Part shown: positions 8,052 to 52,497 of the stretch, piece by piece | How the letters are laid out: every line of letters starts with the position of its first letter | Numbering within the stretch: the first letter of the stretch is position 1 | Assembly (NCBI GenBank): GCA_949358305.1 | Contig: OX442318.1 | Span: 10,956,517-11,020,516 of the forward strand | DNA: 64,000 nucleotides | Source of the DNA: Strigamia acuminata | Taxonomy: Eukaryota; Arthropoda; Chilopoda; Geophilomorpha; Linotaeniidae | Reading direction: 5' to 3' | Translations under genes and position numbers: made by a program | Notes under the pieces: generated by a model | What the model saw: the letters and a program-made list of their open reading frames with translations, nothing else | Database searches by the model: none | What the model was told of the DNA's origin: nothing

Positions 8052-11982
<3,931 letters not shown>

Positions 11983-25131: not shown

Positions 25132-28100
25132 ATGGGTGACATCGCAAATACCGCAGACAGCCACAAAGGCAGCGGAAGTGTTCAGCAAAACATTGAAGGT
25201 GTAAAAAACGTACAAAATGACATTCACACACTATCGCAGACAATTACCAACTCCAATGTCTACTTCGTACAAGGACAAGGATGTAAGTGTTGACATACAT
25301 TTTGCATGAAGCATTGAATGACACGTAATTTACACTTTGCAGTAAATAAGGATCACGTTAAATCTAGCGGCAGTGGATTTGCTGTAAAAATAGATGACAC
25401 AAACTCTGAGGGCGCTGGGATTTTGCCAGAACGAGTTGGGCAGCCAGATGCAGTCACTGATGTTCGGCTGAGTGCAAGTTAGTGATATTACATTGACAAA
25501 AGGTATATTTTCTCTAGTCATAAAATAAAACTTTCCATTTCTGCAGCACACTCATCAAACACTAGAACTGAAACCGGACAAAACAAATCGCTTACGAGTT
25601 GGTTCAAAAGTTTTTTCACAACTGATTCATCCCATTATGCGTTAAAATGCAGGTTGCAACAATTGTACAAAAATTTCACACTGGCCAAGGTCGCTTGGCT
25701 CGACGAGGGACAAGACCTTCCGATGCGCTATTTTGTCAATCTTAAACTCACTCAATCAAATGGAATCATAACGATGAGAAATCTTTTTAAAAGAGTGGAA
25801 TCCGGAAAACCTGTGCGGATATTGATAGAAGGGCAACCTGGATTTGGAAAAACAACGCTGGCAAATAAACTGGCGTATGATTGGGCGAGAAATGAAAGAT
25901 ACATCAAGCACTTCAAACTCGTTTTCTTTGTGCCGTTGCGGGAACTCCACGGACGAAACATCGTAGATGCAATTGACGAAATAGGAAAACATTGTGGGTA
26001 TCGACAAGGTGACATTGTTCAAATAGTAAATGACCACGAAAAAGATATTCTATTTCTGCTGGATGGGTTAGACGAAGTGAATTCGGAAGAACGAGACAAA
26101 ATTATAGAAATACTATTCAGGATAACATTTAGTGACGCGACTGTCGTGGTCACTTGCAGAACCGGTTTGTACGAGTTTGGAAAAAGCGAACGGACAAAAG
26201 TATTTGGACTAGCCAATGTGAGTCAGAATTTCAGCGACAAGCGCATATCGATATTAGGAATTCAAAGTCACATGGACAAACAACTATTCCTGGAAGAATT
26301 CCTGAACCTCCCAAAACCAGCGGTTAAGAATCTATTTCAACAATTATCGAAGCACTTGAAGATACTCGACTCGCCGTTATTTCTAACGCTCCTACCGGTT
26401 ATTTTAGAACAGGATGAAAACCTCGGACAAATCTCCACCAAAATTGAGTTCTTCAAAAAAATTTTTAATTGCAGCATACAGCACAGTTATCTGAAACGAC
26501 AACAGCAAATCGATGTTAGTTTTGACCTATTTTCTTTTAATGGACGACCCAGCAATATTCAGGAGCAAATACGAGATTTTGGAATATTATCAGCGCGAAA
26601 AATACTTCAAACTGAACTAACGTTTGCGAGTGATGATCTGACAAAAGAGATTTATGAATTAGGTTTTCTTATAAATCACACTGAAATGAAATGGTTTTCG
26701 TCAGAAAATCATTACGAGGGGCTGCATCTATCGATTTTGGAATTTGCTGCGGCATTTGCCTTGTGGACGGAACTCACTTTTGAGGACAATGGTGCAGGCT
26801 CAGAAATCTTTTTGCAAACAATTGTAAATCATTTCTTGGACAGAAAGGGAACATCTCTGGTATTGCCGTTTCTTGCCGGCTTAATGCAGGAAAATGTGGA
26901 TCATTTGTTATCCAAAATTCAATCATTTAGTGCGTGGTTTTCATTAGATTTTGCATTGACTGAGATACTCATGTCAGAATGTTCAACACAGAATATTCAT
27001 AAGAGCAAATGTCTGATAAATTTTATTCCAGTCCAGATATACCTTCACCATTCTGCTAATGGAGTGCAATGTCTGATATATGGAATTAAATTTGAGAAAA
27101 TCAAATCAATTACAATTACTAAAAAAACTTCGTTAGAATTATTCGTAAATATAATAACTAGCACAAGTGATTACAATTATGAAATTGTGACTGAATTTGA
27201 GCTGGACCCGTTTGTCCATTTTGTTGCATTCTCAAGTGTACCGTGCGAAGAACCAAGAATTTTTTTCCACCCAAATCTACAACAAGGAACATTAGAAAAG
27301 CGTTTAAATTTTGTCGCATCATCATCCATTATCGAGTCATGTGAATTTAACTCTTTTTCCGGTATTGCAGAAGCATTTTTTAAATCTATTAGCAGTCAGA
27401 AAAGGTTAAGTAAAATCAAATATCGATACTTAAACGTTAATATTAGCACCGAATTTTCATTAAACGTTATTACAAATCTTCTGGAAAACGATCAGATTCA
27501 GTCCCTAGATTTATGCGTACAGGAGTGGCAAAATATGAGTAGTTTTTCCCGCGCTGCTGGTCAATCAGTGTACTTGAAATCCCTGGAAATTCGTTTATGG
27601 TCGAGTTTTAATAGCATTGATTTGTACGATCTTACCGATGGTGGAAAAAAGAAATACTTTCGATTATTTGTTAGTGGTAATTTGACTTGTAGACAGCCAA
27701 CTTCACTTAAAAATTGTGTCAAAATTTTGAAAACTAATAGCATTCGACGAGCCGATATCGAATGGATAACTGCGATGAAACCTAAAATTTTGCACGTGTG
27801 TGATATAAAAATAAGTTATTTTATTAGCAGTTTAAATGCAAATGAAGATTATATCTTCAAGTTGCGAAATTTACAAACATTATGTATTGATCTCTATGAT
27901 GATGACCAGGATATGGAAACGATAGCAAAGGGCATCCTAAGTCTTCCGATTGTGGAATTGATGATAAATACCAATCGGAGAAGTCAGTCAAGAAATCTAT
28001 TCCAATACATGAATAGTATGATACCCAATCGAATCAATTTTCCTTTAACAACGATCAGTTTGTACAAGTTGCATTTCGAAGATTTATCTGAATTGTCTGA

Positions 28101-28299
28101 ATTAACAAAAGGACTGGAGTGCCACCATTGGAATACAGTACATTTAGAATCACAAGCCATATATTTGTCTTATCTGAGGAAAGCATTGACCAATTTTAAT
28201 GTAACTCATGACATGAACCTAGAGCATGTGAGCAGGATGTTCCGACCTCATGAATTACGTTTTAATGTTTGCAATGTATTGTCAATAACGCTAAAATAA
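25132..28299 (+). CDS. NLR-type NACHT protein, copy 1 (3 exons, 1012 aa)
   Basis: Exons: 25132-25282, 25343-25477 and 25547-28299; the sum is 1,013 codons. Residues 1-130 are a Gly/Asn/Gln-rich segment of unknown type containing NSNVYFVQGQG. The pre-NACHT segment (DLPMRYFVNLKLTQ) follows. The NACHT NTPase has Walker A GQPGFGKTT (about 191-199), Walker B LFLLDGLDEV (about 264-273) and the sensor VVVTCRTG (about 295-302). A winged-helix motif HLSILEFAAAFA (about 489-500) matches the HxSxxEFLAA motif of NLRs. From about 560 on the chain looks like degenerate leucine-rich repeats (QSLDLCV, LKSLEIRL, LQTLCIDL). NLRs are cytosolic sensors that oligomerise after ligand sensing and start immune or death signalling. 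No death, CARD or TIR domain is visible. The poly(A) signal is AATAAA at 28614-28619. It heads a three-copy array. Confidence 0.9.
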
Positions 28300-28343
28300 T
28301 TGCAGGTTGTACTGCAAAGTTATCTTTGTTTGGAACAAAGTAA

Positions 28344-28503
28344 TTTTGGTGTCATATTTCAAAAATTTGAGTGTCCTCAGCAAAGAGTTGTCCAATTTCA
28401 ATGTAACCCACGACCATGACACAAACATGGAATATGTGAAAGAAATAATAATGAATCATAAACCATGGGTTATGAATCTATTGTCAAAAACGCGCAAATA
28501 ATT
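28344..28503 (+). pseudogene. Remnant of an additional NLR C-terminus
   Basis: The frame encodes YFKNLSVLSKELSNFNVTHD and ends in LLSKTRK before a stop. It parallels the true C-terminus of copy 1 (LRKALTNFNVTHD ... VLSITLK). This indicates a former neighbouring NLR of which only about 50 codons remain, or an internally duplicated last segment. No NACHT part is nearby. Confidence 0.6.
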
Positions 28504-28670
28504 TGAACTTTTACTAGTAGTGTAATGTCATTTTTTTTTGTAGATGCAGCTACTGTATTCAGAAAAACGCTTAATACTGCATCTTTACACATTACGAATG
28601 TCATAAAGTCATTAATAAAGCTCGTCTTACTTGCTGATTCACAGTCCCATTCTTTCCTCATGCAAGTTTA

Positions 28671-28750
28671 TACAATTTGTCAAAGATAATGGAGACGAAA
28701 GAGAAATGTTTCCAAACAAGCACAAAATCTCCGAATATAAATTGACTTAA
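28671..28750 (+). pseudogene. Decayed lipocalin last exon (unit 1)
   Basis: 80 bases match the end of lipocalin B exon 5 (QFVKDNGDEREM ... EYKLT then TAA) at about 85-90% identity. The conserved Cys codon has changed (ENC to KIS), and no upstream lipocalin exon is present. The matching sequence continues past the stop codon, into the AATAAA-bearing flank shared with lipocalin B. Confidence 0.75.
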
Positions 28751-29057
28751 TTCATGATGCTGAGCAATACCATATTCAATTATTAAAGATAATGTTAAAA
28801 CGAGTAAAAAAAAAGCAATAAAACTTAACTTAATAACTTGGGTTACGTCAAATACTCCATTTTCTTTACCCAAACATCAAAATTACCATACAAATATAAA
28901 ATCAATCCATTTTAATCTGTACCACGAAAAGTTTTTCCTTCATTGTCATGACTGAAAGTGCTGAAGTGAAGCGTCACAGAAATACGTAAAAATTTCCAGA
29001 TACTGACTAAATTACAGTGTTTTATAAAATATGTGGATAAGAAAAAATGAATTTCTG

Positions 29058-29061
29058 AAGC
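29058..29061. other. Target duplication of Gypsy element 1, left copy
   Basis: AAGC directly precedes the LTR here and directly follows the other LTR (41928-41931). The unoccupied site with a single AAGC is at 47285-47288. Confidence 0.85.
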
Positions 29062-29882
29062 TGTCGCGTCCTACTTGGTATAGGTTTAAATAGCGCTAAC
29101 GTGTAATACTTTACCTGTGATCAATTATGTAAATACCCAAATGAATACCAAATGTATGTAAATAAACAGGTAATTTATTCACCAGGCTTTATGCCTTTAA
29201 AATACACTCAGTAATAATTCTAGAGTCGACGTGGTCAGCGTCGAACAAAGGATTTCTCAAGATGGCGTCGTCGATTCCGCGTGGTCGGCGGAACAAAGGC
29301 GGCGTCTCGAGTTGTCGTTAATTCGTCACGGATTCGTCTTCACGGACGCGGTGGAATGCTCTTTCGAGTCTTCTATCCGTGCCTGTTGTCTAGGTTTTGG
29401 TTTAGCGTCGCAGAGGCCTCGTCTAGGAACTTTGGGGTTCCCTACAAAGCACTCGGACACTTACTTCGGCGAATAATCGTCTGGGCGATTATTCTGGGTG
29501 ATTTCACAAGGGCTATTCTCGTGCTTTCGCAGGAATAGCTCGCAAGTGACTTCGTGAGAGTTACAGTTTGCACTTTACTCAGCGATCCTCGATCAATCCT
29601 AACTTGTAGTTGAAGTTGGCCTGACGGTGAGGTAGTTGCTGTGTTCTTGGTGTCGTTTGTGTAAGTTCTGTCTTTAGGCGGGAAACACAGCCTTTTATGC
29701 AGTGGGGTGAAGGGCCGGCGATCAACCAATGGGGGCTGACCACCAGCCGCTTCCTCCCCCTCGGGGCACACACCTGCCATGGGGAGGTGGAGCCAACTCG
29801 GGGGGGAACGACTCTTTAATCATAGTGACTCATAGGACAAGTATCCGCCCTGGGGGGACACTTATCCAACTGGGTCACCACA
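29062..29882 (-). repeat. 3' LTR of Gypsy element 1
   Basis: 821 bp. Read in the element's sense it starts TGTGGTGACC and ends GCGACA. The element's poly(A) signal AATAAA reads as TTTATT at 29174-29179. A GCATAAAAGG core at about 29690-29700 may be the promoter TATA element. Confidence 0.95.
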
Positions 29883-29929
29883 CGTCCCTCCTCCAGCTTC
29901 GATCTCGGATCGGAGCGATCTCAATTTTC

Positions 29930-32900
29930 TCATCGCTCTCCTCTGCGAAGAGCCGGCAGCACTCCTCTGCATGGGCGGAGGATCACGGGTGGCACTGCCG
30001 GTGGCGGCGGTGGTAAATCCGGGGGCAGAGAGGTTGTCAGATCCGCAGGATTTTGTCGCTCGTTGATGAAGTACTGCGGGTGACTGCCGGCTGGCTCGCC
30101 AACCAACCCCGTACGCTCATGGATCCAAATCCGGGTAGACGCGGGGAATCGATCGGGGACGAGTCGGATCCTTCGCGACTCGGCGCTCGATCCGGGTTTC
30201 CTGTGGGCCCGTAGGATACGGCGATGGAAGACGGCGTCCATGGTGGATCGGGCTTCTCTGTTTAGCCATTTGAGGATTGATTCGCCGTGATCGTCGGAGT
30301 CAATGATGCGTTGTCGCGTGAACTCCGACATCTGAAGGAAGGGGTATTCCACTCCCAGCCTCAAATAAAGCTGCGCTGCTGGGGGCGGCGGAGGCGATGG
30401 TGGGAGCGGAATCTCCATTGGGCTCTCCAACGGTGGCGTAGCCGGCTCTGCAGAGAGAGCGGCCAGCCCTGCCGCTGGTGGTGAAGGAGAGGGCAGCGGA
30501 GGAGTTCGGGGTCCTCGCTTGGAACGCTTCGGAATCAATATGGGTCGATTCGCGTGTCGCTTCTCCTTCGGGAATACCGGCTTTGGGGTCGGTATGTATG
30601 GTTGGACCGCCGCCTCTGGGGGGGCGGTCTCGATGGCCTGTGGAAGGCTCGCCGCCGTTCCCGGTATCTCCGGAACCTCCCGAATTGTTCGCAACAAGGA
30701 AGGGTGGACTCCGGGGTTCCGGTAGCGGAATGCTAACGAACGCATCTTTGAAAACTGTAGGCCTGGGTTTTCCGTATTTCTGGCCAGGTCGAAGCGCAGC
30801 GAGGCGGGCTCAGGAGTCCATCCGGCCCATACCTGGTACAACGCCCGAGGAAGGTGAACTCCCTCACGGTCGACGATTGTCCAGGCCGCCATAGCTTGCC
30901 GACTGTCCAAGAAGACGCCCAGGGATAGCAGCTGGGCCAGTACGTTCGTCACAGCCAAATTCAAACTGCTCCGATGGCAGGGGTGAGCGCGGTCCGGATT
31001 GTCACTGAATTGTTGTGACAACGTCCGCATCTGTTTGATCGCCCAGTTGATGTGGTGAGTTTGGGCGGCGTCGGCCTGTCGTATGGCCAACTCGGCAATC
31101 GCGGGGTTCTCGTATTCGGCCAGATATTCTTGTAACTCGCTGAGTGGGGGATAGGCCGCTTCACGCCGGCATCTGGCGTCCATCTCCCGCTGCGTGTACC
31201 ACTCGGCGTTGCGATGAGGATGGTACACTCGTGGCGTCGGGGGTGACGGTGGACGGCCCATCCCTGGTAGGTCGTCGTATCTGACCCGTTTGGGAGTTGG
31301 ATCTCCCACCGGAATCATCCGGGGAGGGGTCCACGTGGTCACTGCTGGGTTTGTACCCTCGAGGAGTGGCGGCCATCGCGATTGCGCCTGTGGGGGCACA
31401 AGCGCGGTGGGCACAGCCGGTGTTGAGCCCGACGGCCGGTTGGCCGCGTATCCTCGGAAGGCGTTCTTCAATGCCATGGCCAGATCTTGTTTCGTGACCG
31501 GTCCATCCTTGTCCGACTCTTCTTGGGATATTTGTTCTTCCGTCAATTCTCCCAAATCAATCTCTGCCTGGAGCCTGGACGGCCCAGCCGCGGATCCGAG
31601 ACTTCGGGGTTCGGACCTTTTTGCGGCGGCCATCTCTCGCTCTTTCTCCAATCCTTTCGCGATCAGAGACCGCGCACGCGTCTTCTGTCGTACTTTACGC
31701 TTCCGATTCCTCCTGGTGTTGGCTGCGACGGATCTTCGTTGGACCGTCCTCTGGGGGACGTCCGTCGGGGAATCAGGTCTCTGGTGTGTTGAGACGGTTC
31801 GTCGCGACGAGGATTGATCTGACGACTGTGTGGTAATCGCCATAAACAACGAGGATCTTTTCTTTCCTCGATCTTGGTGTGTCTCGGTCCTCGCAGCCCA
31901 GTGGGCGGAAGATTCGACCGTTCGCTCAGCCCGCGCGTCGTCTGGCGAGGCAGGCTCGAGCGTTACTACTCGGCGACACTCCGAGCGCACGACAACTCGA
32001 GTTCGGGAACTGGAGCTGCTCGAGCGGCTGCGGTAGTCGCGACTCGTTGACGGGCCGGCCTCTGTTGGGGAGACGGCCTGTCTTCTTCGTGCGGGTCCGC
32101 GTGGGGCGGACTCCGCCGGACGCTTCGATCTTCTGTGATGGCGGCGACTTCCCAGGATACCAGCGTGGTATAACTGCCACATCTCAGACTGCGTGGCCGT
32201 AAAATTCGCCGGTGGTATCCATCTGGGTGTCAAATGGTCTTCTTCGATGTCGCGAAGCCATCTACGGATTTCTTCGGGGGAGAAACCGTTTCTCTCGAGA
32301 ACTCGGGTTACTCCGTGAGTCTCGGTGCGCTTTAAGCGTTCGATCTCGTCGTCCACTATTTTCTGGCGGGCTGCCAAGGTCGGGGCCTCGCTCCACCTGT
32401 GGGAGGTGTGCAGCTCGGCCACCGTGCCTGGGTAAGCCTCTTCCAGGTACCCGGAGTAAACGGGGCTCGGCGGATCCGCATCGGGTGGGATCCGCGGCCC
32501 CACTCGCTCCCTCATCTCCTTCGTCATGCACTCGACCAGCGTTTTTGATCGCTCGAATTTTTCCTCGAGGGTCCTGGAATACATCAATCGGATTTTCCAG
32601 GCGCTGGTCTCTGCAGGATAGGCCTGCCGCAGGTAAATCGGCAGGGCTCCGCGAAAGATGTTGTTGGCGGTTGACGCCGTCGGAGGCAGGGCGTCCCACG
32701 ATTCTAGCGGGTCGACCTGAATAATTTTAGATCACAAGATTAATATAATAAATCCCAGTTAACGATGGGGATCAGAAATATGCTCAAGATCGACGGTGGC
32801 AGCAACTCCTTTCTTTTGTTGCGGCCGTCGGTCTTATTTTCTTGTTTCGCAGTTCTGCGATGATCTCCGCCGTCGTAGCGCTGATCCAACACTACTTTTG

Positions 32901-33394
32901 AACTCAGGTGATCCGCTTTTTTGGAAGGGGTCGCAGGCAAAACCGATCGTTAAATTTTAATTTCTTACGCTAAACTTTTTTATTTTAACTCTAATCGTAT
33001 TTTAATTTATTACGATGTTTAAATTTAAAAGAAAGAAAACCTTTAGTTTTGGTTTTGGTTTGCCACGACGCCATTCCGCGAACACTTCCTTTGTTCTAGT
33101 TTTTTGGCGGCCTTGACTCCGAGGTGAATCTGGGTCCACTCTCGGGTTTTTAGCCAGCCTTAAATCAACAATAAAACAGAAAGAAATATATCAGTCACAA
33201 GTCACGCTCCAATCTGGGTTGGATGCAACAGATTCAAAGAATTATGTGATTTCTCTGGGGAAATCACACTAATTTACCTGCAACGGCGGTTGTTCGTCCC
33301 AATTCTCATCGTCTTCTGCATTTACGATTAGGCCGTCGCTCTCGTCTCTCGACGATGCGCTCGGCTCTAATCGTGGGTTGCGTCGATCGGCCAT
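29930..33394 (-). CDS. ORF3 of Gypsy element 1, spliced accessory protein (967 aa)
   Basis: A leader exon (33278-33394) encodes 39 acidic residues from MADRRNPRLEPSASSRDES to DEQPPLQ and ends at a CAG/GTAAAT donor. The acceptor TTATTCAG precedes 32716, and the frame continues without break to the stop at 29930. The protein is rich in Arg, Pro and Ser. It has an RS-like run near residue 270, basic RxRxR patches that could target the nucleus, a helical middle (about 530-700) and Pro-rich segments near the C-terminus. No signal peptide or transmembrane span is seen, so it is not a typical envelope. Its position after pol is where errantiviruses carry env. A regulatory or RNA-export role is only a guess. 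Element 2 has a related leader. Confidence 0.75.
32717..33277 (-). other. Intron of ORF3
   Basis: A 561-base intron between the leader exon and the main ORF3 exon, GT at the right end and AG at the left end on the minus strand. It is AT-rich in its middle and holds no ORF of note. Confidence 0.6.
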
Positions 33395-33768
33395 TTCAAT
33401 AAATGAAGTTTTGTTTGAGAGGTCTTTGTCTTTCTCTTTGGGGGAGAAGCAAAAACACGTCTCGTCGTGTTAAAAACAGTCGGAAACTGGGCCTATCGAC
33501 GCTGAGAATTGTGGGTCTCGAACGCGTCTCGTATTTTGCGAGATCCGCCATGCTGGCAATGACGCTACGGGGTCGACCGCGTGGTTTCGTTGTCACGTGG
33601 TCGCCCGCTACGTCATAACTTCTCGTCTGTTAGTGGTGACTGCGACAATTCGTTGCGAAGTTTGGACTTAGCCAAATTTTCGCGTCTCAACATGTGCAGC
33701 AGCTCTCGTAAGTAAATCTTTTTATTTTACAAGGCCTCCGCTCCATGTTATCACATTTTCTTTTATTT
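33395..33768. other. Spacer between pol and ORF3 leader
   Basis: No gene. It contains CACGTGG (33595-33601) and ACGTCA (33611-33616) next to each other and CpG-rich sequence. It may hold a splice acceptor or an internal promoter for the ORF3 mRNA. Confidence 0.4.
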
Positions 33769-36700
33769 TTAGTTCTTCCCCACGACTTTGCCGTCCCGAA
33801 TGAACGGATTATTGCTTCGTCGTGGTCGAAGGTTGATTTTCGACGTGCTCGTAGATCGTGACTCTACTTGCTCGTTCATCTCCGATGTGTTGGCATTTTT
33901 CTCATTACTAATTTTTTTATTTTCCATTTCAGAAGTACTTTCTTCTGCTTCCTCCCTCTCCGAAATTGCTTGCTCCGGCTGTGCTGGAGCCTCGTCGGCC
34001 GGAGATTCGGCGTCGAAGAATTCATCCTCGTCCTCCGCTATATTTTCAGCTTCATTTGTTTTTTGGAACGTGTCGACCACGGTGCCCCCTTGGCCGCTGT
34101 GTGTCTGACCTTCCAGCCAGATTTCTTGGGGAAACTCTGGCAGATATGGCCTTAAATCTCGGCCATGTATCGACTGAAAATTTTTGTTGTCCTCTAAGCG
34201 GCGTAGTTGGTATGCGTTGCCGCCGTGTTCGGCCACAATTACATAGGGACCGTCCCTCTTGTCGGCTAAACCTGCGGCGATGCCCCTCGCTGCATTGGAC
34301 AACGTGTGTGCCTCCTTCCACACTAGATCATTCACTTTAAAGTTCGCGAAAGCGAGATCGCCTTCTTTATCTGCGATTCTTTCTCTCATGTTGAAAATAT
34401 GCGCCATCATATGCTGGTATGTGTCGGATATAGTCTGTTCCAACCGGCACACGTACTCGTGTGGGCTCGATGGGTCTAATACGTTAACAGCTTCGGCAAC
34501 GCGTGGGTCCCATGGCATCCTTAATTCGCGGGCGAAGTTGAGGTACGCCGGTGAGAATTCGCGTGTTCTTGACACGGTTGAGCGAATGCTGAAAGCGATT
34601 TCTCGCAGGTATTCGTCCCATCGATTGTGAATATCGGTGAATACTGTCAGCGCATATTTTATGTCTTTATTTAATCTCTCGACTGGGTTTGTCTGAGGAT
34701 TATACGTGGAGGTGTTTGATGCATCCATTTTAAATTTTCTACAGAAGTCCTTATATATTCTCGATCGGAATTGGGGGCCGTTATCCGAAATGAGTTTTCT
34801 GGGAAACCCAAATCGCATTGCCACGTCGTAAAGGCACTCGACTATGTTTTCAGCCGAGGGCTTCGCGAGGGCGTACAGCTCCGGCCATCGGGTGGCCACG
34901 TCCATAATTACGAGAATATACATGTTCTTGTTTCCCGTTGTGGGCTTGGGGCCCATCAAGTCTATGCTTAAGCAGTCAAACGGTGCGTAGGGTCCGAGAG
35001 ACATGGCGTTTCTGGCCACTTTATCTCGCGGTCTGCACGCTTGGCACCGGGGGCAGTGTCGGATAAATTTCGTTATCTTTTGCCGCGCGCCCGGCCAGAA
35101 GAAAAGTTGTTTTACTCGATAAAGGGTCCTCGCCACGCCAGAATGGCTGGCGAGCGGGTGTCCGTGCATCAGCCACAACAGCCGGGTGTGCAGCGATGCC
35201 GGCACGACCACTTTAACCGAGTTTCCCGCTCCGCTGAGGTCATCTTGAAACGTCGGGTGGTATTTTACCAGGAGTTCATCATCTATGAGGTAGCTTGTTG
35301 CTTCTTTGACGAACTGTTTCCGGCGGTGTGGGTTTGTCATCCCTTCCGGAAATTCGCCGTTCAGCAAATATTGCGTTATAATTTGACATTTTGTGTCTGC
35401 TGCCTGGTGTTCGACGAACTCACGTCTCGTGGGTGGAGCGTATTGTGTTTTTTCTTCAATTTTTGCTGTGAAGGCGCGTAGTAGTGTTTTGTGGGTTTCT
35501 CCGGGGGGCGGAGATTGAATTTCGGATGTTGAATTGTTTGTCCCAGCTGGCTGGTATGTTCGAGTCCAAAAACCACAAAACGTTCTATCTTCAGGCTCCA
35601 TCACTGGTAGCTCGTTCGCCTTTCGCAAACGCCATATTCTCCGTGGAGTCGGGCAGTACAAGAGGTGGGTGTCGTCCTCGCCGTCGTCGTCTGGTCCTTG
35701 GGGGTCAGAGGCTGGGGCTCTCGAGAGGGCGTCGGCCACATGATTGTACTTCCCGGGGCGGTACGTAATTGTTATATCGCACGCCATTAACTCCAGTTGC
35801 CATCGTGCGAGTCGGCCGGAGGGTTCCTTGAGCTTCATCAACCAGCTTAGTGCCTGGTGATCTGTCTGAACCTCGAAGTTCGTGTACTCCAGATAGTCGC
35901 GAAATTTCCGAACTGCCCAAATTACGGCTAGGCATTCTAGTTCCGTTGCCGTATAATTTTTCTCCGCGCCCTGTATTTTTCTGCTTATAAACATACAGGG
36001 TACTTCTTGCGAGATTCCGTTGTACACGTGGGTCTGCAGAAGGGCTGCACCCAGTCCGATTTTACTTGCGTCGGTGTGCAACACGAACGGTCGGTTTAGG
36101 TCCGGCAATGGCATCTTTTCGACGTCAGCCAGCATTTGCTTGATAGTGCTAAATGCGGCCTCGCACTGGACCGTCCACTCAAACTCTTTATCCGTTCGTA
36201 AGAGATCCGTTATAGGCGCGGCCACTTCAGCCAGACCAGAGAGTAGTCGGCCGAAGAAATTGACCATGCCCATGAATCTCTGGACACCTTTTATATCTTC
36301 GGGGGCGGGGAATCCGTTTATTGCTTTGACTTTTTCGGGGTCAATCGCGATTCCCTCGACTCCTATTCGATATCCTAGGAAGGCAAGCTCTTTCCTGCAA
36401 AACTTGCTCTTCCCTGGATGGATGTGGAGTCCTGCCTTGGCTAGGCGAGAGACCACTCTATCGATGTGGTCTATATGTTCTTCGAATGTGTCCGACGTTA
36501 TTATGATGTCGTCGAGATACGCCCACACGAAGTCGTGCAGCATATCTCCCAACACGCTTTCGATCAGTTTCTGGAACGTGCTCGGGGCGTTTACAAGCCC
36601 GAACGGCATCACGTTGAACATTAGTCTTCCTATCGGGGAGTAGAAAGCCGTTTTCAGTTTGTCTTCGGGTTTTAGCTCCACTTGCCAATACCCCTTTGAC

Positions 36701-41012: not shown

Positions 41013-41086
41013 TTTCTTTCGGTAATTCTACGATTTGGGTTATCTTATTGAGAGATCACAAGTTCAGATTTGAGATTTATTTCTAA

Positions 41087-41104
41087 ATCCCGGACAGGCC
41101 CCCA
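41087..41104 (-). other. tRNA-Pro-like primer binding site, element 1
   Basis: Two bases after the 5' LTR, the minus strand reads TGGGGGCCTGTCCGGGAT. It differs at two positions from TGGGGGCTCGTCCGGGAT, the complement of the tRNA-Pro 3' end used by murine leukaemia virus. Confidence 0.75.
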
Positions 41105-41106
41105 CG

Positions 41107-41927
41107 TGTCGCGTCCTACTTGGTATAGGTTTAAATAGCGCTAACGTGTAATACTTTACCTGTGATCAATTATGTAAATACCCAAATGAATACCAAATGT
41201 ATGTAAATAAACAGGTAATTTATTCACCAGGCTTTATGCCTTTAAAATACACTCAGTAATAATTCTAGAGTCGACGTGGTCAGCGTCGAACAAAGGATTT
41301 CTCAAGATGGCGTCGTCGATTCCGCGTGGTCGGCGGAACAAAGGCGGCGTCTCGAGTTGTCGTTAATTCGTCACGGATTCGTCTTCACGGACGCGGTGGA
41401 ATGCTCTTTCGAGTCTTCTATCCGTGCCTGTTGTCTAGGTTTTGGTTTAGCGTCGCAGAGGCCTCGTCTAGGAACTTTGGGGTTCCCTACAAAGCACTCG
41501 GACACTTACTTCGGCGAATAATCGTCTGGGCGATTATTCTGGGTGATTTCACAAGGGCTATTCTCGTGCTTTCGCAGGAATAGCTCGCAAGTGACTTCGT
41601 GAGAGTTACAGTTTGCACTTTACTCAGCGATCCTCGATCAATCCTAACTTGTAGTTGAAGTTGGCCTGACGGTGAGGTAGTTGCTGTGTTCTTGGTGTCG
41701 TTTGTGTAAGTTCTGTCTTTAGGCGGGAAACACAGCCTTTTATGCAGTGGGGTGAAGGGCCGGCGATCAACCAATGGGGGCTGACCACCAGCCGCTTCCT
41801 CCCCCTCGGGGCACACACCTGCCATGGGGAGGTGGAGCCAACTCGGGGGGGAACGACTCTTTAATCATAGTGACTCATAGGACAAGTATCCGCCCTGGGG
41901 GGACACTTATCCAACTGGGTCACCACA
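41107..41927 (-). repeat. 5' LTR of Gypsy element 1
   Basis: 821 bp, apparently identical to 29062-29882. It ends at the second AAGC (41928-41931). Confidence 0.95.
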
Positions 41928-42415
41928 AAGCGTCACAAATTTGTCACACTTGATAAGATAAAAGTGAAAACCAACAAACACCCACTCTGAGGCAATTGTG
42001 TCAACATTCGAAGACCGCTACTTTTGTTAGCAGCGAAAACACAGTACAGGAATACAACATGTATGTACATCTCACATGTTTCACTCTAAAATAAGAAATA
42101 ATTGAGGGGAACTATAAACAATTTAGTTAATGATCATTGAGATCATCATCGGTATCTGCAATTCACGATCCTTCCCTCCCGAGTTAAGCGGCCATGTTTG
42201 CTATAGGACAGTGTCAGGCAAATATTTTCATGATAAAATGGTACAAGCTTAGGAAGCTATGGGCGAATAAGTAAAAGTTACACCATTGATGTAATGAACA
42301 TGAGGTGTAAATATTACTGTTTTTGCAGGTATACGTAGTGTGAGTTTTACCGGCATCTTGTTTTAAGTGAGATAATTTTTTCAAATTATTTTTAGTAATT
42401 TTGAATGTACAGGTA

Positions 42416-42846
42416 CACTAGAGCTCTGATTATCCAAACATTGGTTATGCAAACGACCGGTTATCCGAACAGCAGTTTTTCGATTTCTTATCGAGTTTTT
42501 ATTTTCATGTACACACGTGGACAAGAAAAACTTCCCTGCAGTACAGTTGTTTTAAGTTTGTCCACGAGGACTCGAGGAGGCGTTGAGATAGGATGGCGTC
42601 AACATTTGCCCGGTCTATCTTTTAATAGTGTTGTTAGGGCAAGACAAGAAACCGGGTAAGACTGATGTCATTAAATCTCAATCGATTTCTATGCCACCTG
42701 GTAGATAAACTTAAAACAGCTAAACAGAAGGGAAGTTCTTTTTGTCTACGGTTGTACGTAAGCCTAATGTCAAATTATGCAAACAAATCGTTGTATGAAC
42801 ACCCTTGTTCCATCCCCGATCAGTTCAAATAATCAACGCTCTTCTG
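42416..42846. mobile_element. pogo/Tigger-type MITE, unit 2
   Basis: Duplicate of the unit 1 copy, with TA outside both ends and the same inverted ends. Small differences (for example AATCAACGCTCTTCTG at the right end) are shared with unit 3. Confidence 0.7.
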
Positions 42847-43014
42847 TAGCAAACTCCTGCCGGTAAGATTAAACGAGGAAAGCAAATACGCAATGTTGCA
42901 GAGACGAGAGTTCAGCAGTTGGTGGCATTTAAAGACCACGCCCTACTTCCGTTATATCTGGAAGTAACACAAAACATTCATAATAATAATATAAGAATAT
43001 AAATAACAAAAAAA

Positions 43015-43221
43015 TCACTCCTTTTCATTAATAATATACACATACAGAGTTCTGCCCCCCTTGAATAAGAAAAGAAAAAGCACGTGCATAACAATGCTGA
43101 CAGCTAACAATGCAATTAAGAAATTTAAATTATGGGCCATATGAGGGCAGTTGTGTAACTGGTTGTTAATCTCCTGATTTCTGCTTTCGTTTTCGTTTGC
43201 CCCTAAAACAGCCAACGCCAT
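43015..43221 (-). CDS. Small transmembrane ORF, unit 2 (68 aa)
   Basis: It encodes MALAVLGANENESRNQ, the same hydrophobic span as in unit 1 and the tail YVYIINEKE. It is identical to the unit 3 copy. Compared with unit 1 it has six extra residues near the start without loss of frame. Confidence 0.4.
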   Translation of the reverse strand: MALAVLGANENESRNQEINNQLHNCPHMAHNLNFLIALLAVSIVMHVLFLFLFKGGRTLYVYIINEKE

Positions 43222-43359
43222 TTGATTCCCCACCCTTGACTACCACTAATTCCAAATTTTGGAGATGATCTGAGAGGTGGCCCATAAAGTATAATTGTTC
43301 CTTTACAATATATTACACTCAAATGCAATTGATATTTTATAGATTTGAAATTTTAAGTC

Positions 43360-46300
43360 ATGTGTGACATTGCAAATACCACAGACAGCCACAAAGGCAG
43401 CGGAAGTGTTCAGCTAAACATTGAAGGTATAAAAAACGTACAAAATGACATTCATCCACTATCGCAGACAATTACCAACTCCAATATCTACTTCGTACAA
43501 GGACAAGGATGTAAGTGTTGACATACATTTTGCGTGAAGCATTGAATGACACGTAATTTACACTTTGCAGTAAATAAGGATCACGTTAAAGCTAGCGGCA
43601 GTGGATTTGCTGTAAAAATAGATGACACAAACTCTGAGGGCGCTGGGATTTTGCCAGAACGAGTTGGGCAGCCAGATGCAGTCACTGATGTTCGGCCGAG
43701 TGCAAGTTAGTGATATCGCATTGACAAAATGTATATTTTGTCCTGTCATTAAAAAAAATTTCCATTGCAGCAGCGCACTCATCAAACACTAGAACTGATA
43801 CCAGACAAAACAAATCACTTATGAGTGGGTTCACAAGTTTTTTCACAACTGCTAAATCACATTATGCGTTGAAATGCAGGTTGCAACAAGTGTACAAAAA
43901 TTTCACACTGGCCAAGGTCGCTTGGTTCGACAAGGGGCAAGACCTCCCGATGCGCTAGTTTGTCAATCTTAAACTCACTCAATCAGATGAAATCATAAAG
44001 ATGAGAAATATTTTTAAAAGAGTGGAATCCGGAAAACCTGTGCGGATATTGATAGAAGGGCAACCTGGATTTGGAAAAACAACGCTGGCAAATAAACTGG
44101 CCTATGACTGGGCGAGAAATGAAAGATACATCAAACACTTCAAACTCGTTTTCTTTGTGCCGTTAAGGGAACTCCAAGGACGAAACATCGCAGATGCAAT
44201 TGACGAAATCGGAAAACATTGTGGATATCGACAAGGTGACATTGTTCAAATAGTAAATGACAACGAAAAAGACACACTATTTGTACTGGATGGGTTAGAC
44301 GAAGTGAAGGCAGAAGAACGAGAAAAAATTATAGAAGTACTATTCAGAATAACATTTAGTGAAGCGACTGTCGTGGTCACTTGCAGAACCGGTTTGTGCA
44401 AGTTTGGAAAGAACGAACGGACAAAAGTATTCGGACTAGCCAATGTGAGTCAGAATTTCAGTGACAAGCGCATTTCGATATTAGGAATTCAAAGTCACAT
44501 AGACAAACAACTATTCCTGGAAGAATTCTTGAACCTCCCAAAACCAGCGGTTAAGAATCTATTTCAACAATTATCGAAGCACTTGAAGATACTCGACTCG
44601 CCGTTATTTCTAATGCTCCTACCGGTTATTTTAGAACAGGATGAAACCCTCGGACAAATCTCCACCAAAATTGAGTTCTTCAAAAAAATTTTTAATTGCA
44701 GCATACAGCACAGTTATCTGAAACGACAAAAGCAAATCGATGTTAGTTTCGACCTATTTCGTTTTAATGGACGACTCAGCAATATTCAGGAGCAAATACG
44801 AGATTTTGGAATATTATCAGCGCGAAAAATACTTCAAACTGAACTAACGTTTGCGAGTGATGATCTGACAAAAGAGATTTATGAATTAGGTTTCCTTATA
44901 AATCACAATGAAATGAAATTGTTTTCGTCAGAAAATCACTACGAGGGGCTGCATCTATCCATTTTGGAATTTGCTGCGGCATTTGCCTTGTGGACGGAAC
45001 TCACTTTTGAGGACAATGATGCAGGCTCAGAAATCCATTTGCGAGCAATTGTAAATCATTTCTTGGACAGTAAGGGAACATCTCTGGTATTACCGTTTCT
45101 TGCTGGCCTAATACAGGAAAATGTGGATCATTTGTTATCCAAAATTCAATCATTTAGTGCGTGGTTTACATTAGATTTTGCATTGACAGGGATACTCATG
45201 TCAGAATGTTCAACACAGAATATTCATAAGAGCAAATGTCTGATAAATTTTATTCCAGTCCAGATATACCTTCACCATTCTGCTAATGGAGTGCAATGTC
45301 TGATATATGGAATTAAATTTGAGAAAATCAAATCAATTACAATTACTAAAAAAACTTCGTTAGAATTATTCGTAAATATAATAACTAGCACAAGTGATTA
45401 CAATTATGAAATTGTGACTGAATTTGAGCTGGACCCGTTTGTCCATTTTGTTGCATTCTCAAGTGTACCGTGCGAAGAACCAAGAATTTTTTTCCACCCA
45501 AATCTACAACAAGGAACATTAGAAAAGCGTTTAAATTTTGTCGCATCATCATCCATTATCGAGTCATGTGAATTTAACTCTTTTTCCGGTATTGCAGAAG
45601 CATTTTTTAAATCTATTAGCAGTCAGAAAAGGTTAAGTAAAATCAAATATCGATACTTAAACGTTAATATTAGCACCGAATTTTCATTAAACGTTATTAC
45701 AAATCTTCTGGAAAACGATCAGATTCAGTCCCTAGATTTATGCGTACAGGAGTGGCAAAATATGAGTAGTTTTTCCCGCGCTGCTGGTCAATCAGTGTAC
45801 TTGAAATCCCTGGAAATTCGTTTATGGTCGAGTTTTAATAGCATTGATTTGTACGATCTTACCGATGGTGGAAAAAAGAAATACTTTCGATTATTTGTTA
45901 GTGGTAATTTGACTTGTAGACAGCCAACTTCACTTAAAAATTGTGTCAAAATTTTGAAAACTAATAGCATTCGACGAGCCGATATCGAATGGATAACTGC
46001 GATGAAACCTAAAATTTTGCACGTGTGTGATATAAAAATAAGTTATTTTATTAGCAGTTTAAATGCAAATGAAGATTATATCTTCAAGTTGCGAAATTTA
46101 CAAACATTATGTATTGATCTCTATGATGATGACCAGGATATGGAAACGATAGCAAAGGGCATCCTAAGTCTTCCGATTGTGGAATTGATGATAAATACCA
46201 ATCGGAGAAGTCAGTCAAGAAATCTATTCCAATACATGAATAGTATGATACCCAATCGAATCAATTTTCCTTTAACAACGATCAGTTTGTACAAGTTGCA

Positions 46301-46526
46301 TTTCGAAGATTTATCTGAATTGTCTGAATTAACAAAAGGACTGGAGTGCCACCATTGGAATACAGTACATTTAGAATCACAAGCCATATATTTGTCTTAT
46401 CTGAGGAAAGCATTGACCAATTTTAATGTAACTCATGACATGAACCTAGAGCATGTGAGCAGGATGTTCCGACCTCATGAATTACGTTTTAATGTTTGCA
46501 ATGTATTGTCAATAACGCTAAAATAA
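43360..46526 (+). pseudogene. NLR-type NACHT gene, copy 2: hybrid with one nonsense codon
   Basis: Exons as in the other copies: 43360-43510, 43571-43705 and 43771-46526. The product would start MCDIANTTDSHKGSGS as in copy 3. At 43956-43958 a TAT codon (Tyr in PMRYFVN) has become TAG, just before the NACHT domain. Everything after it is open: Walker A, LFVLDGLDEV, the winged-helix motif and the full C-terminus. Up to about 45190 the sequence equals copy 3, and from about 45200 it equals copy 1, so the gene is a recombinant. A downstream Met at 44001 would give an 841-residue protein starting 30 residues before Walker A. A truncated functional product therefore cannot be excluded. Confidence 0.88.
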
Positions 46527-46570
46527 TTGCAGGTTGTACTGCAAAGTTATCTTTGTTTGGAACAAAGTAA

Positions 46571-46730
46571 TTTTGGTGTCATATTTCAAAAATTTGAGTG
46601 TCCTCAGCAAAGAGTTGTCCAATTTCAATGTAACCCACGACCATGACACAAACATGGAATATGTGAAAGAAATAATAATGAATCATAAACCATGGGTTAT
46701 GAATCTATTGTCAAAAACGCGCAAATAATT
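46571..46730 (+). pseudogene. Remnant of an additional NLR C-terminus (unit 2)
   Basis: Identical in appearance to 28344-28503; duplicated together with the 3' half of copy 1. The poly(A) signal follows at 46841-46846. Confidence 0.6.
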
Positions 46731-46897
46731 TGAACTTTTACTAGTAGTGTAATGTCATTTTTTTTTGTAGATGCAGCTACTGTATTCAGAAAAACGCTTA
46801 ATACTGCATCTTTACACATTACGAATGTCATAAAGTCATTAATAAAGCTCGTCTTACTTGCTGATTCACAGTCCCATTCTTTCCTCATGCAAGTTTA

Positions 46898-46977
46898 TAC
46901 AATTTGTCAAAGATAATGGAGACGAAAGAGAAATGTTTCCAAACAAGCACAAAATCTCCGAATATAAATTGACTTAA
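46898..46977 (+). pseudogene. Decayed lipocalin last exon (unit 2)
   Basis: Same 80-base remnant as at 28671-28750, with the same lost Cys codon. It marks the 3' end of unit 2. Confidence 0.75.
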
Positions 46978-47772
46978 TTCATGATGCTGAGCAATACCAT
47001 ATTCAATTATTAAAGATAATGTTAAAACGAGTAAAAAAAAAGCAATAAAACTTAACTTAATAACTTGGGTTACGTCAAATACTCCATTTTCTTTACCCAA
47101 ACATCAAAATTACCATACAAATATAAAATCAATCCATTTTAATCTGTACCACGAAAAGTTTTTCCTTCATTGTCATGACTGAAAGTGCTGAAGTGAAGCG
47201 TCACAGAAATACGTAAAAATTTCCAGATACTGACTAAATTACAGTGTTTTATAAAATATGTGGATAAGAAAAAATGAATTTCTGAAGCGTCACAAATTTG
47301 TCACACTTGATAAGATAAAAGTGAAAACCAACAAACACCCACTCTGAGGCAATTGTGTCAACATTCGAAGACCGCTACTTTTGTTAGCAGCGAAAACACA
47401 GTACAGGAATACAACATGTATGTACATCTCACATGTTTCACTCTAAAATAAGAAATAATTGAGGGGAACTATAAACAATTTAGTTAATGATCATTGAGAT
47501 CATCATCGGTATCTGCAATTCACGATCCTTCCCTCCCGAGTTAAGCGGCCATGTTTGCTATAGGACAGTGTCAGGCAAATATTTTCATGATAAAATGGTA
47601 CAAGCTTAGGAAGCTATGGGCGAATAAGTAAAAGTTACACCATTGATGTAATGAACATGAGGTGTAAATATTACTGTTTTTGCAGGTATACGTAGTGTGA
47701 GTTTTACCGGCATCTTGTTTTAAGTGAGATAATTTTTTCAAATTATTTTTAGTAATTTTGAATGTACAGGTA

Positions 47773-48203
47773 CACTAGAGCTCTGATTATCCAAACATTG
47801 GTTATGCAAACGACCGGTTATCCGAACAGCAGTTTTTCGATTTCTTATCGAGTTTTTATTTTCATGTACACACGTGGACAAGAAAAACTTCCCTGCAGTA
47901 CAGTTGTTTTAAGTTTGTCCACGAGGACTCGAGGAGGCGTTGAGATTTGATGGCGTCAACATTTGCCCGGTCTATCTTTTAATAGTGCTGTTAGGGCAAG
48001 ACAAGAGACCGGGTAAGACTGATGTCATTAAATCTCAATCGATTTCTATGCCACCTGGTAGATAAACTTAAAACAGCTAAACAGAAGGGAAGTTCTTTTT
48101 GTCTACGGTTGTACGTAAGCCTAATGTCAAATTATGCAAACAAATCGTTGTATGAACACCCTTGTTCCATCCCCGATCAGTTCAAATAATCAACGCTCTT
48201 CTG
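47773..48203. mobile_element. pogo/Tigger-type MITE, unit 3
   Basis: Third copy, with TA flanks and the same ends as in unit 2. Confidence 0.7.
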
Positions 48204-48371
48204 TAGCAAACTCCTGCCGGTAAGATTAAACGAGGAAAGCAAATACGCAATGTTGCAGAGACGAGAGTTCAGCAGTTGGTGGCATTTAAAGACCACGCCC
48301 TACTTCCGTTATATCTGGAAGTAACACAAAACATTCATAATAATAATATAAGAATATAAATAACAAAAAAA

Positions 48372-48578
48372 TCACTCCTTTTCATTAATAATATACACAT
48401 ACAGAGTTCTGCCCCCCTTGAATAAGAAAAGAAAAAGCACGTGCATAACAATGCTGACAGCTAACAATGCAATTAAGAAATTTAAATTATGGGCCATATG
48501 AGGGCAGTTGTGTAACTGGTTGTTAATCTCCTGATTTCTGCTTTCGTTTTCGTTTGCCCCTAAAACAGCCAACGCCAT
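48372..48578 (-). CDS. Small transmembrane ORF, unit 3 (68 aa)
   Basis: Same protein as in unit 2. It lies about 140 bases upstream of NLR copy 3 on the opposite strand, so the pair could share a promoter. Confidence 0.4.
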   Translation of the reverse strand: MALAVLGANENESRNQEINNQLHNCPHMAHNLNFLIALLAVSIVMHVLFLFLFKGGRTLYVYIINEKE

Positions 48579-48716
48579 TTGATTCCCCACCCTTGACTAC
48601 CACTAATTCCAAATTTTGGAGATGATCTGAGAGGTGGCCCATAAAGTATAATTGTTCCTTTACAATATATTACACTCAAATGCAATTGATATTTTATAGA
48701 TTTGAAATTTTAAGTC

Positions 48717-51700
48717 ATGTGTGACATTGCAAATACCACAGACAGCCACAAAGGCAGCGGAAGTGTTCAGCTAAACATTGAAGGTATAAAAAACGTACAA
48801 AATGACATTCATCCACTATCGCAGACAATTACCAACTCCAATATCTACTTCGTACAAGGACAAGGATGTAAGTGTTGACATACATTTTGCGTGAAGCATT
48901 GAATGACACGTAATTTACACTTTGCAGTAAATAAGGATCACGTTAAAGCTAGCGGCAGTGGATTTGCTGTAAAAATAGATGACACAAACTCTGAGGGCGC
49001 TGGGATTTTGCCAGAACGAGTTGGGCAGCCAGATGCAGTCACTGATGTTCGGCCGAGTGCAAGTTAGTGATATCGCATTGACAAAATGTATATTTTGTCC
49101 TGTCATTAAAAAAAATTTCCATTGCAGCAGCGCACTCATCAAACACTAGAACTGATACCAGACAAAACAAATCACTTATGAGTGGGTTCACAAGTTTTTT
49201 CACAACTGCTAAATCACATTATGCGTTGAAATGCAGGTTGCAACAAGTGTACAAAAATTTCACACTGGCCAAGGTCGCTTGGTTCGACAAGGGGCAAGAC
49301 CTCCCGATGCGCTATTTTGTCAATCTTAAACTCACTCAATCAGATGAAATCATAAAGATGAGAAATATTTTTAAAAGAGTGGAATCCGGAAAACCTGTGC
49401 GGATATTGATAGAAGGGCAACCTGGATTTGGAAAAACAACGCTGGCAAATAAACTGGCCTATGACTGGGCGAGAAATGAAAGATACATCAAACACTTCAA
49501 ACTCGTTTTCTTTGTGCCGTTAAGGGAACTCCAAGGACGAAACATCGCAGATGCAATTGACGAAATCGGAAAACATTGTGGATATCGACAAGGTGACATT
49601 GTTCAAATAGTAAATGACAACGAAAAAGACACACTATTTGTACTGGATGGGTTAGACGAAGTGAAGGCAGAAGAACGAGAAAAAATTATAGAAGTACTAT
49701 TCAGAATAACATTTAGTGAAGCGACTGTCGTGGTCACTTGCAGAACCGGTTTGTGCAAGTTTGGAAAGAACGAACGGACAAAAGTATTCGGACTAGCCAA
49801 TGTGAGTCAGAATTTCAGTGACAAGCGCATTTCGATATTAGGAATTCAAAGTCACATAGACAAACAACTATTCCTGGAAGAATTCTTGAACCTCCCAAAA
49901 CCAGCGGTTAAGAATCTATTTCAACAATTATCGAAGCACTTGAAGATACTCGACTCGCCGTTATTTCTAATGCTCCTACCGGTTATTTTAGAACAGGATG
50001 AAACCCTCGGACAAATCTCCACCAAAATTGAGTTCTTCAAAAAAATTTTTAATTGCAGCATACAGCACAGTTATCTGAAACGACAAAAGCAAATCGATGT
50101 TAGTTTCGACCTATTTCGTTTTAATGGACGACTCAGCAATATTCAGGAGCAAATACGAGATTTTGGAATATTATCAGCGCGAAAAATACTTCAAACTGAA
50201 CTAACGTTTGCGAGTGATGATCTGACAAAAGAGATTTATGAATTAGGTTTCCTTATAAATCACAATGAAATGAAATTGTTTTCGTCAGAAAATCACTACG
50301 AGGGGCTGCATCTATCCATTTTGGAATTTGCTGCGGCATTTGCCTTGTGGACGGAACTCACTTTTGAGGACAATGATGCAGGCTCAGAAATCCATTTGCG
50401 AGCAATTGTAAATCATTTCTTGGACAGTAAGGGAACATCTCTGGTATTACCGTTTCTTGCTGGCCTAATACAGGAAAATGTGGATCATTTGTTATCCAAA
50501 ATTCAATCATTTAGTGCGTGGTTTACATTAGATTTTGCATTGACAGGGATACTCATTTCAGAATGTTCAACACAGAATATTCATAAGAGCAAATGTCTGA
50601 TAAATTATATTCCAGTCCAGATATACCTTCATCCCTCCGTTGATCACGAAGTGCAATGTCTGATATATGGAATTAAATTTGAGAAAATCAAATCAATTAT
50701 AATTACTGAAAAAACTCCGTTAGAATTATTCGTAAATATAATAACTAGCACAACTGATTACAATTATGGAATTGTGACTGACTTTTATCTGGATGATTAT
50801 GTATATTTTGCAGCATTCTCAAGTGTACCGTGCAAAGAACCAAAAAATTTTTTCCACCCAAATCTACAAAAAGGAACATTAGAAAAGCGTTTAAATTTTG
50901 CCGCATCATCATCAACTATCGAGTCATGTGAATTGAACTTAAGTTCTTCCGGTATTGCAGAAGCATTTTTAAAATCTATTAGCAGTCAGCAAACATTGAG
51001 TAAAATCAAATATCGATACTTAAACGTTAACATTAGCACCAAACTTTCATTAAACGTTGTTACAAATCTCCTGGAAAACAATCAGATTCAGTCCCTAGAT
51101 TTGTGGGTAAAGGAGTGCCAAGATATGAGTAGTTTTTCCCGCGCTGCTGGTCAATCAGTGTACTTGAAATCCCTGCAAATTCGTTTATGGTCGTGTTTTA
51201 GTAGCGTTGATTTGTACGATCTTACCGATGGTGGAAAAAAGAAATACTTTCGATTACATGTTGGTGGTAAATTGACTTGTCGACAGCCAACTTCACTAAA
51301 AAATTGTGTCAACATTTTGAAAACTAATAGTCGACTAGCCGATATCGAATTGATTTCTGCGATGGAACTTGTAAATTTGCACGTGTGTGATTTATATTTT
51401 CTTAGCAGCTTAAATGCAAATGAAGATTATAGTTTCAAGTTGCAAAATTTACAAACATTATGTATTGATCTCGACTATGAAGACCAAGAAACGGTAGCAA
51501 AGGGCATCCTAAGTCTTCCGATTGTGGAATTGATGGTAAATGCCAATCGGAGAAGTAAGTCAGGAAATCTATTCCAACACATGAACAATATGAAACCCAA
51601 TGGAATCAATTGTCGTTTAACAACGATCAGTTTGTACAAGTTGTATTTCAAAGATTTATCTGAATTGTCTGAATTAACAAAAGGACTGGAATGCCACCAT

Positions 51701-51877
51701 TGGAATACGGTTCATTTAGAATCACAAGCCAGATATTTGTCTAAACCTAAACTGAGGAAAGCGTTGTCCAATTTTAATGTAACTCATGCCATGAACCTAG
51801 AGCATGTGAGGAGGATATTCCGACCTCATGAATTATGTTATACTGTTTGCAATGTATTGTCAATAACGCGGAAATAA
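48717..51877 (+). CDS. NLR-type NACHT protein, copy 3 (3 exons, 1011 aa)
   Basis: Exons: 48717-48867, 48928-49062 and 49128-51877; the sum is 1,012 codons. Domain order is as in copy 1: N-terminal Gly/Asn/Gln-rich segment, pre-NACHT (MRYFVNLKLTQ), Walker A GQPGFGKTT, Walker B LFVLDGLDEV, VVVTCRTG, the winged-helix HLSILEFAAAFA, then leucine-rich-like sequence. The NACHT half is very close to copy 1, while the C-terminal third has many replacements and small indels (for example HPSVDHEV against HHSANGV). That is expected if the repeat surface diverges in what it senses. Gypsy element 2 starts 8 bases after the stop, so the native 3' UTR is lost and the transcript may end in the LTR. Confidence 0.9.
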
Positions 51878-51885
51878 TTGAAGGT

Positions 51886-52495: not shown

Positions 52496-52497
52496 CG

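Follow-up and report, generated by a model that had tools for sequence, protein, structure and literature searches.

A tandem array of NLR-type genes and a large clustered NACHT family in the centipede Strigamia acuminata

The stretch of DNA considered here, 64,000 nucleotides long and hereafter called the window, corresponds to C6:10956517-11020516 in the centipede Strigamia acuminata, where C6 is contig OX442318.1, described in the genome note of the species as chromosome 5 with a length of 16.15 Mb (PMC10556566); the genome scanned around it comprises 237,517,015 bases in 157 contigs. The window carries three head-to-tail units of 4.6-5.4 kb, which are mutually 93.5-97.0% identical in a self-BLAST, and each unit holds one NLR gene of three predicted exons (Table 1). 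The three tandem NLR-type genes proposed by the initial annotation are thus all present, each with a clear match to the NACHT model PF05729. They share the same layout, namely two introns of 60-69 bp with GT-AG ends followed by one large exon that holds most of the protein. In-frame phase-1 splicing of the 5' exons was computed for the window genes and candidate splice sites were seen in other members of the family; by these signals, the 5' exons would be spliced to the NACHT exon, and the predicted products of gene 1 (1012 aa) and gene 3 (1010 aa) are both intact. Gene 2 has an in-frame TAG at window 43956-43958, which is codon 157 of its spliced frame. Up to about 45270 it is 99-100% identical to gene 3, a single bin of the 5' flank being at 98%, and downstream of this point it is 100% identical to gene 1. 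Because it is gene 3-like before the breakpoint and gene 1-like after it, gene 2 is a recombinant of genes 1 and 3, and probably a pseudogene with intact copies on both sides. The array extends beyond the window, with five NACHT genes within C6:10,982,335-11,044,929.

Table 1. Features of the NLR array and of the retrotransposon that interrupts it (window positions).
Feature	Position	Strand	Evidence or remark
Three head-to-tail units	about 23667-29061, 41928-47290, 47291-51888	+	self-BLAST; LTR element interrupts
Gene 1 exon 1, type A N-terminal motif exon (MGDIANTADSHKGSGSVQQNIEGVKNVQ...)	25132-25282	+	tblastn/profile match (itself a profile seed); donor GTAAGT, phase 1; spliced frame open
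Gene 1 exon 2, probable degenerate second motif-exon copy (SSGSGFAVKIDDTNS...)	25343-25477	+	acceptor TTGCAG, donor GTTAGT; profile matches same exon in L011, L028
Gene 1 exon 3: pre-NACHT, NACHT, winged helix, HD2-like, putative C-terminal LRR-like region	25547-28299	+	open frame
Gene 1 NACHT	25819-26169	+	PF05729 E 1e-19
Gene 2, recombinant, probable pseudogene	exons 43360-43510, 43571-43705, 43774-46526	+	in-frame TAG
Gene 2 NACHT	44046-44393	+	PF05729 E 6.1e-21
Gene 3 exon 1, type A N-terminal motif exon	48717-48867	+	motif-exon searches, spliced frame
Gene 3 exon 2, probable second motif-like exon	48928-49062	+	motif-exon searches, spliced frame
Gene 3 exon 3, NACHT to C-terminus	49131-51877	+	open frame
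Gene 3 NACHT	49403-49750	+	PF05729 E 6.9e-21
Gene 3 putative C-terminal LRR-like region	50588-51874	+	
LTR retrotransposon, Gypsy-type gag-pol by domain order	29062-41927	-	LTRs 29062-29882 and 41107-41927; RT/RNaseH/integrase matches

The Walker A (GQPGFGKTT), Walker B (LDGLDEV) and VVVTCRTG stretches and the winged-helix motif HLSILEFAAAFA named in the initial annotation are all found in the window genes; the leucine-rich-like C-terminus that it also named finds no match among the Pfam LRR models and is left with a low-confidence similarity of fold. PF05729 matches the three window genes and all 22 aligned members of the family, in which G115, G117, K118, D189, G190, D192, E193, R221, G223, H410, E415, F416 and A419 (numbering of the gene 3 open reading frame, ORF) are invariant. 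When a profile of these 22 members was searched against the PDB, 36 of 37 matches were animal NLRs, the best being NLRC4 (4.9e-20), and one NLRC4 alignment covers positions 94-439 of the profile; a single-sequence search likewise returned animal NLRs in 32 of its 35 matches up to E 10. Two rows in each PDB list bear the name "uncharacterized protein", of which 5irm is titled rabbit NOD2 and 5irl is presumably the same protein. At E<=0.01, NLRC4_HD2 matches five and NOD2_WH one of the 22 members (best E about 0.002), and in the window genes NLRC4_HD2 does not reach its curated cut-off. Models of bacterial defence systems match weakly, with a best E of 0.0051 in PADLOC (mad8), 1e-4 in NCBIfam (orc1/cdc6) and 0.006-0.013 for the EruA NACHT, all far under the cut-off where one is given. 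The predominance of animal NLRs among the PDB matches and the weakness of the bacterial ones speak against a non-NLR STAND ATPase, and the window genes are, as judged from their sequence, genuine animal-type NLR genes of the centipede.

Contamination from a non-arthropod source, another concern raised at the outset, can be dismissed, the window being part of a chromosome-length contig in an arthropod genome. With 54 matches to the cuticle-protein model Chitin_bind_4, some of them several per frame, the genome is marked as that of an arthropod; proteins of this kind number from 32 to more than 150 in individual arthropods, according to the S. maritima genome paper. About 28 kb separate the end of one cuticle-protein cluster (C4:9.648-9.682 Mb) from an NLR cluster (C4:9.710-9.720 Mb), and this adjacency on the same contig argues that the NLR genes are not contaminants. 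The mitochondrial contig, C157, carries cox1, cox2 and cox3 consecutively and a distant atp6 on the same strand, while a weak match to the small-subunit rRNA (26.7 bits, under the gathering score) lies beside cox1 on the opposite strand. In its COX1, TGA aligns with bovine Trp at 13 of 13 codons and AGA with Ser at two of four. This gene order agrees with that of S. maritima, which its authors called unique among metazoans (PMC4368715). A chaetognath source, which the mitochondrial order had brought to mind, is rejected, as C157 does carry atp6 and its order agrees with Strigamia. COX1 searched against the PDB ranked mammalian chains first and does not place the phylum, and stretches of 501 bp from each of 20 unplaced contigs (one of them reading N) showed neither rRNA nor mtDNA.

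The window genes belong to a large family. At least 95 NACHT matches occur in the genome, a lower bound as 105 of 116 candidates were scored, and 69 of them have open frames of 850 aa or more, as against 26 with shorter ones. As many as 71 of the 95 fall into 19 clusters, with a neighbour under 60 kb away, compared with a mean of 4.4 and a maximum of 16 clustered genes when 95 places were drawn at random in 500 trials; the largest cluster, at C6:12.48-12.62 Mb, comprises 15 genes of uniform + orientation. We read 43 of the 95 loci (the three window genes and the 40 best-scoring others), and in a tree of their NACHT regions the window genes group together (95/89), adjoining L023 of the same array. 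The tree holds two large clades (99/96 and 98/98) and joins the long branches of L012 and L030, a joining about which the tool gives a warning. The family is best read as a birth-and-death family of cytosolic sensors, which grows by tandem duplication and recombination while some copies decay. At C6:12581939-12623541, two NLR genes are repeated at a spacing of about 25.7 kb (L020/L021 and L046/L047, with 100% and 98% protein identity), which may be either a recent segmental duplication or a residual haplotypic one.

The 5' exons of these genes are unusual. Type A exons were first chosen by pattern and 20 of them were built into a profile; upstream on the same strand and at E<0.01, this profile detects a type A exon in 29 of the 43 genes, that is, the 20 seeds and nine more. 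In a reverse-strand control the sole match below E 0.01 was an exon of the neighbouring locus L038, seen from the overlapping locus L019. A second exon, type B (MSNLEC...SDTNYxxQGM), was spotted by eye in L036 and lies ahead of eight of the 43 genes, L040 and L043 sharing one exon, and hence a short upstream exon of either type is present in 37 of 43. Both large clades of the NACHT tree contain genes with type A. The motif is also duplicated in some genes, for the exon-1 profile finds exon 2 of L011 and of L028, neither of which was among its sequences; exon 2 of the window genes is probably a degenerate copy as well, to judge from its position, its splice site and a shared SGSG..V.I pattern. 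Extra or broken copies of the motif exon were seen upstream of the main one in L013, L014, L017, L039, L041, L046 and L047, and such extra copies suggest exon duplication or alternative first exons.

Four single-peptide searches with queries derived from the NLR genes gave 44 motif places in the genome, 40 of them within 4 kb upstream of a NACHT match on the same strand; in one of these searches, two of 25 places carry a stop. Two of the four places without a NACHT within 4 kb are strong, C6:11039267 (E 7.5e-13) and C8:3301462 (E 1.4e-10), and the next NACHT on the same strand follows 5.7 and 10.4 kb further on, respectively. The other two, C6:6648740 (E 1.9) and C8:3760403 (E 0.8), are weak and may be chance matches. 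The four places together may be regarded as candidate partners, pseudogene remains or chance. In 12 pairs between two C6 sub-clusters, exon 1 shows a synonymous divergence (dS) of 0.11-0.34 against 0.75-1.16 for the NACHT region, a contrast that suggests homogenisation of the 5' exon by gene conversion, with the proviso that the exon is only 45 codons long. Scans of the complete gene 1 N-terminus, of four further motif exons and of eight upstream ORFs from five loci without type A detected neither CARD nor PYD, nor any other death-fold domain. An ORF upstream of the NACHT ORF in L012 matches an ABCA1-like R1 regulatory domain (E 2.4e-16) and presumably represents the final exon of an ABC transporter gene next to it.

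We favour, with a probability of about 0.72, the reading that these genes encode cytosolic NACHT sensors of a large, tandemly growing family, in which the C-terminus senses and the N-terminal peptide signals when clustered. The C-terminal LRR-like region would detect microbial or danger ligands, either directly or through a partner, upon which the switch formed by the NACHT, winged helix and HD2 would exchange nucleotide and oligomerise. Oligomerisation would gather many copies of the short N-terminal peptide encoded by its own exon or exons, and the peptide would relay the signal. The cytosolic location, the sensing of ligands, the oligomerisation and the immune role of the centipede NLRs are what we infer. 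The tempo of divergence along the protein fits the early expectation of a conserved NACHT part and a faster C-terminus: omega (dN/dS) is 0.11-0.42 from NACHT to winged helix and 0.39-1.26 in the C-terminus, higher in the latter in 28 of 28 pairs, although these pairs (21 from seven C6 genes and seven others) share ancestry and are non-independent, and the top value of 1.26 rests on four changes. The NACHT is under purifying selection and the C-terminus under weaker constraint.

The limits of these pairs are the first of several points that weigh against our reading. No Pfam LRR model matches the C-terminus in the window genes or in the 22 members, and the hydrophobic periodicity expected of LRRs is not significant (p 0.52 for residues 520-931, 0.074 for residues 600-931). 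The AlphaFold model of the C-terminus is poor (confidence score, pLDDT, of 44), as is that of the full-length protein built from three input sequences (pLDDT 32); the low-confidence C-terminal model nevertheless resembles the LRRs of NLRs best, and the C-terminus may, with low confidence, be LRR-like. On the N-terminal side, 20 of the 29 type A genes are themselves the pattern-picked seeds of the profile, and six of 43 genes have neither a type A nor a type B exon (L012, L027, L030, L032, L033, which has a weak type A-like match at E 0.16, and L042). Moreover, 52 of the 95 NACHT places lie outside the loci read for N-terminal exons. Over 21 C6 pairs, exon-1 omega ranges from 0.30 to 1.45; exon 1 is only loosely constrained as protein.

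The N-terminal peptide may be a disordered leader or a short linear motif that docks an adaptor, with the NACHT and LRR interactions doing the work as in the shrimp LvNLRC-STING pair, and we would give this view somewhat less than an even chance. It fits with an exon that is short and polar, comes in two dissimilar types and spans such a range of omega; arthropod NLRs have been reported without an N-terminal effector domain (PMC11508797), and binding of a NACHT to STING has been reported in shrimp (PMC12370184). A mere leader might, however, be expected to drift more than an exon that is found in both large clades and duplicated in some genes, though the objection loses strength as two further motif copies carry a stop. 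Of the roles considered for the N-terminus, that of docking peptide or leader has the highest probability, and templating by an amyloid is the bolder proposal.

According to the latter, the type A motif, brought together by NACHT oligomerisation, would start a beta-arch fold and impose it on the same motif in a downstream effector, as in fungal NLRs of the NWD2 type. We hold this to be unlikely. The motif stands at the predicted N-terminus of genes with no recognised effector domain, which is where fungal amyloid motifs sit on NLRs that lack one (PMC5485727); it contains Gly, Asn and alternating hydrophobic residues (GSGNVPIQIHDAKNVTVKVKTHV in L010), it is present in one or two copies (L028, L013, L017 and probably exon 2 in the window), and its genomic places lie nearly all just upstream of a NACHT, with two of the four exceptions being strong matches. 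Against it, Pfam RHIM matches neither the five N-termini scanned nor the genome at E<=1, a weak test for the genome since degenerate insect-type RHIMs may escape the model, and the type A profile finds in the PDB only weak matches with no visible link (best E 0.064) and no solved amyloid structure. The type B exons of eight genes are unlike the type A motif, exon-1 omega reaches 1.45, and no effector bearing the motif was identified among the motif places near NACHT matches. The alternation score of the group, 4.61, exceeds that of shuffled sequences (3.65, standard deviation 0.18) but hardly that of random segments taken from these proteins (4.46). Most of the scored genes at C6 12.5 Mb show strong beta-arch-like alternation, which the window gene does not; its own type A copy is unremarkable (p 0.68). 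We therefore make no claim of amyloid patterning in the N-terminal exon, as it barely exceeds random segments of the same proteins. The full version of the idea, that is, a large centipede NLR repertoire sharing an N-terminal signalling amyloid unrelated to RHIM, which templates effectors as in fungi, with the motif exon homogenised by gene conversion and the sensor ends diverging, is unlikely as a whole; if true, animal NLRs would have their first signalling amyloid outside RHIM, and animals a second one beside RHIM.

Mammalian oocyte NLRPs serve reproduction and development, and several of the fold and PDB matches are to such proteins (NLRP5, NLRP2 and NLRP14). A role of the centipede family in reproduction or development rather than in pathogen sensing seems improbable to us nonetheless: these matches merely mirror the content of the PDB, and the faster divergence of the C-terminus and the birth-and-death clustering suit a host-parasite conflict better, without being decisive. 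That the genes are mostly decaying relics of a dying multigene family amplified with transposons is very improbable, for the stop in gene 2, the 26 shorter frames and the retrotransposons flanking the array are outweighed by the 69 long open frames, the low omega of the NACHT in all 28 pairs and the splice signals kept by the window genes.

Lineage-specific expansions of NLRs are known in sponges, cnidarians, amphioxus and sea urchins, which the centipede family resembles in this respect. Like vertebrate NLRs (NLRC4, NLRP1/3/6/9, NOD2, NAIP), which are its best sequence and fold matches in the PDB, the centipede family has a NACHT with Walker A and B, a sensor Arg, a winged-helix His and EF, and a pre-NACHT region. 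Unlike them, it has neither CARD nor PYD in the N-terminal pieces scanned and no Pfam LRR, and the protein is mostly encoded by one large exon after the two introns of 60-69 bp. The crustacean NLRs, LvNLRC, LvNLRPL1/2 and others, are likewise arthropod genes, and LvNLRC carries a NACHT followed by C-terminal LRRs, its N-terminus being of unknown function (PMC12370184); by their description, they differ from the centipede family with its 95 NACHT matches in tandem clusters and its recurring motif exons. With the fungal NACHT receptors of the NWD2/HET-S type it shares a short N-terminal motif with Gly, Asn and hydrophobic residues in place of an effector domain (PMC5485727), whereas its NACHT is of the animal type, its C-terminus LRR-like, if our low-confidence model holds, rather than made of WD repeats, and no adjacent effector gene was found.

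Arthropod immunity is usually described without NLRs, genes regarded as uncommon or lacking across most arthropods. "Absent from arthropods" would be too strong in view of the crustacean NLRs that have been published (PMC12370184, PMC11508797). Neither NLR nor NACHT is named in the main text of the genome paper on S. maritima, both words are absent by count from two later myriapod genome papers, and no description of centipede or myriapod NLR or NACHT genes was found among the open-licence papers listed, at most 20 per search and supplements excluded, which is weak evidence of absence. A large myriapod NLR family with unusual N-terminal exons has thus apparently gone undescribed, and its 95 NACHT matches suggest that NLR repertoires can be overlooked when annotation starts from insect genes. 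The centipede allows one to study, in an arthropod, how NLRs function in the absence of CARD or PYD, and the motif exon makes the question testable.

A 12.9-kb long terminal repeat (LTR) retrotransposon separates units 1 and 2 and is bordered by 4-bp AAGC flanks, read by eye; its insertion is recent, because its two 821-bp LTRs are identical. Inside it, a 933-aa ORF at 29930-32731 (-) is without a Pfam match. A second gag-pol-like element lies directly 3' of gene 3 at 52564-59423 (+), and no LTR pair was found for it in window 51900-64000. Upstream of the array, a 787-aa ORF at 16840-19203 (-) resembles a MULE or ZSWIM-type transposase with a weak C2H2 finger match. Two ORFs at 1375-1899 (+) and 2471-3388 (-), with no Pfam family above cut-off, have hydrophobic, signal-peptide-like starts and possibly encode secreted lineage-specific proteins. 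Finally, self-BLAST reveals tandem repeat arrays at 10529-11634 (with a 31-bp shift), 9193-9911 and 5871-6285.

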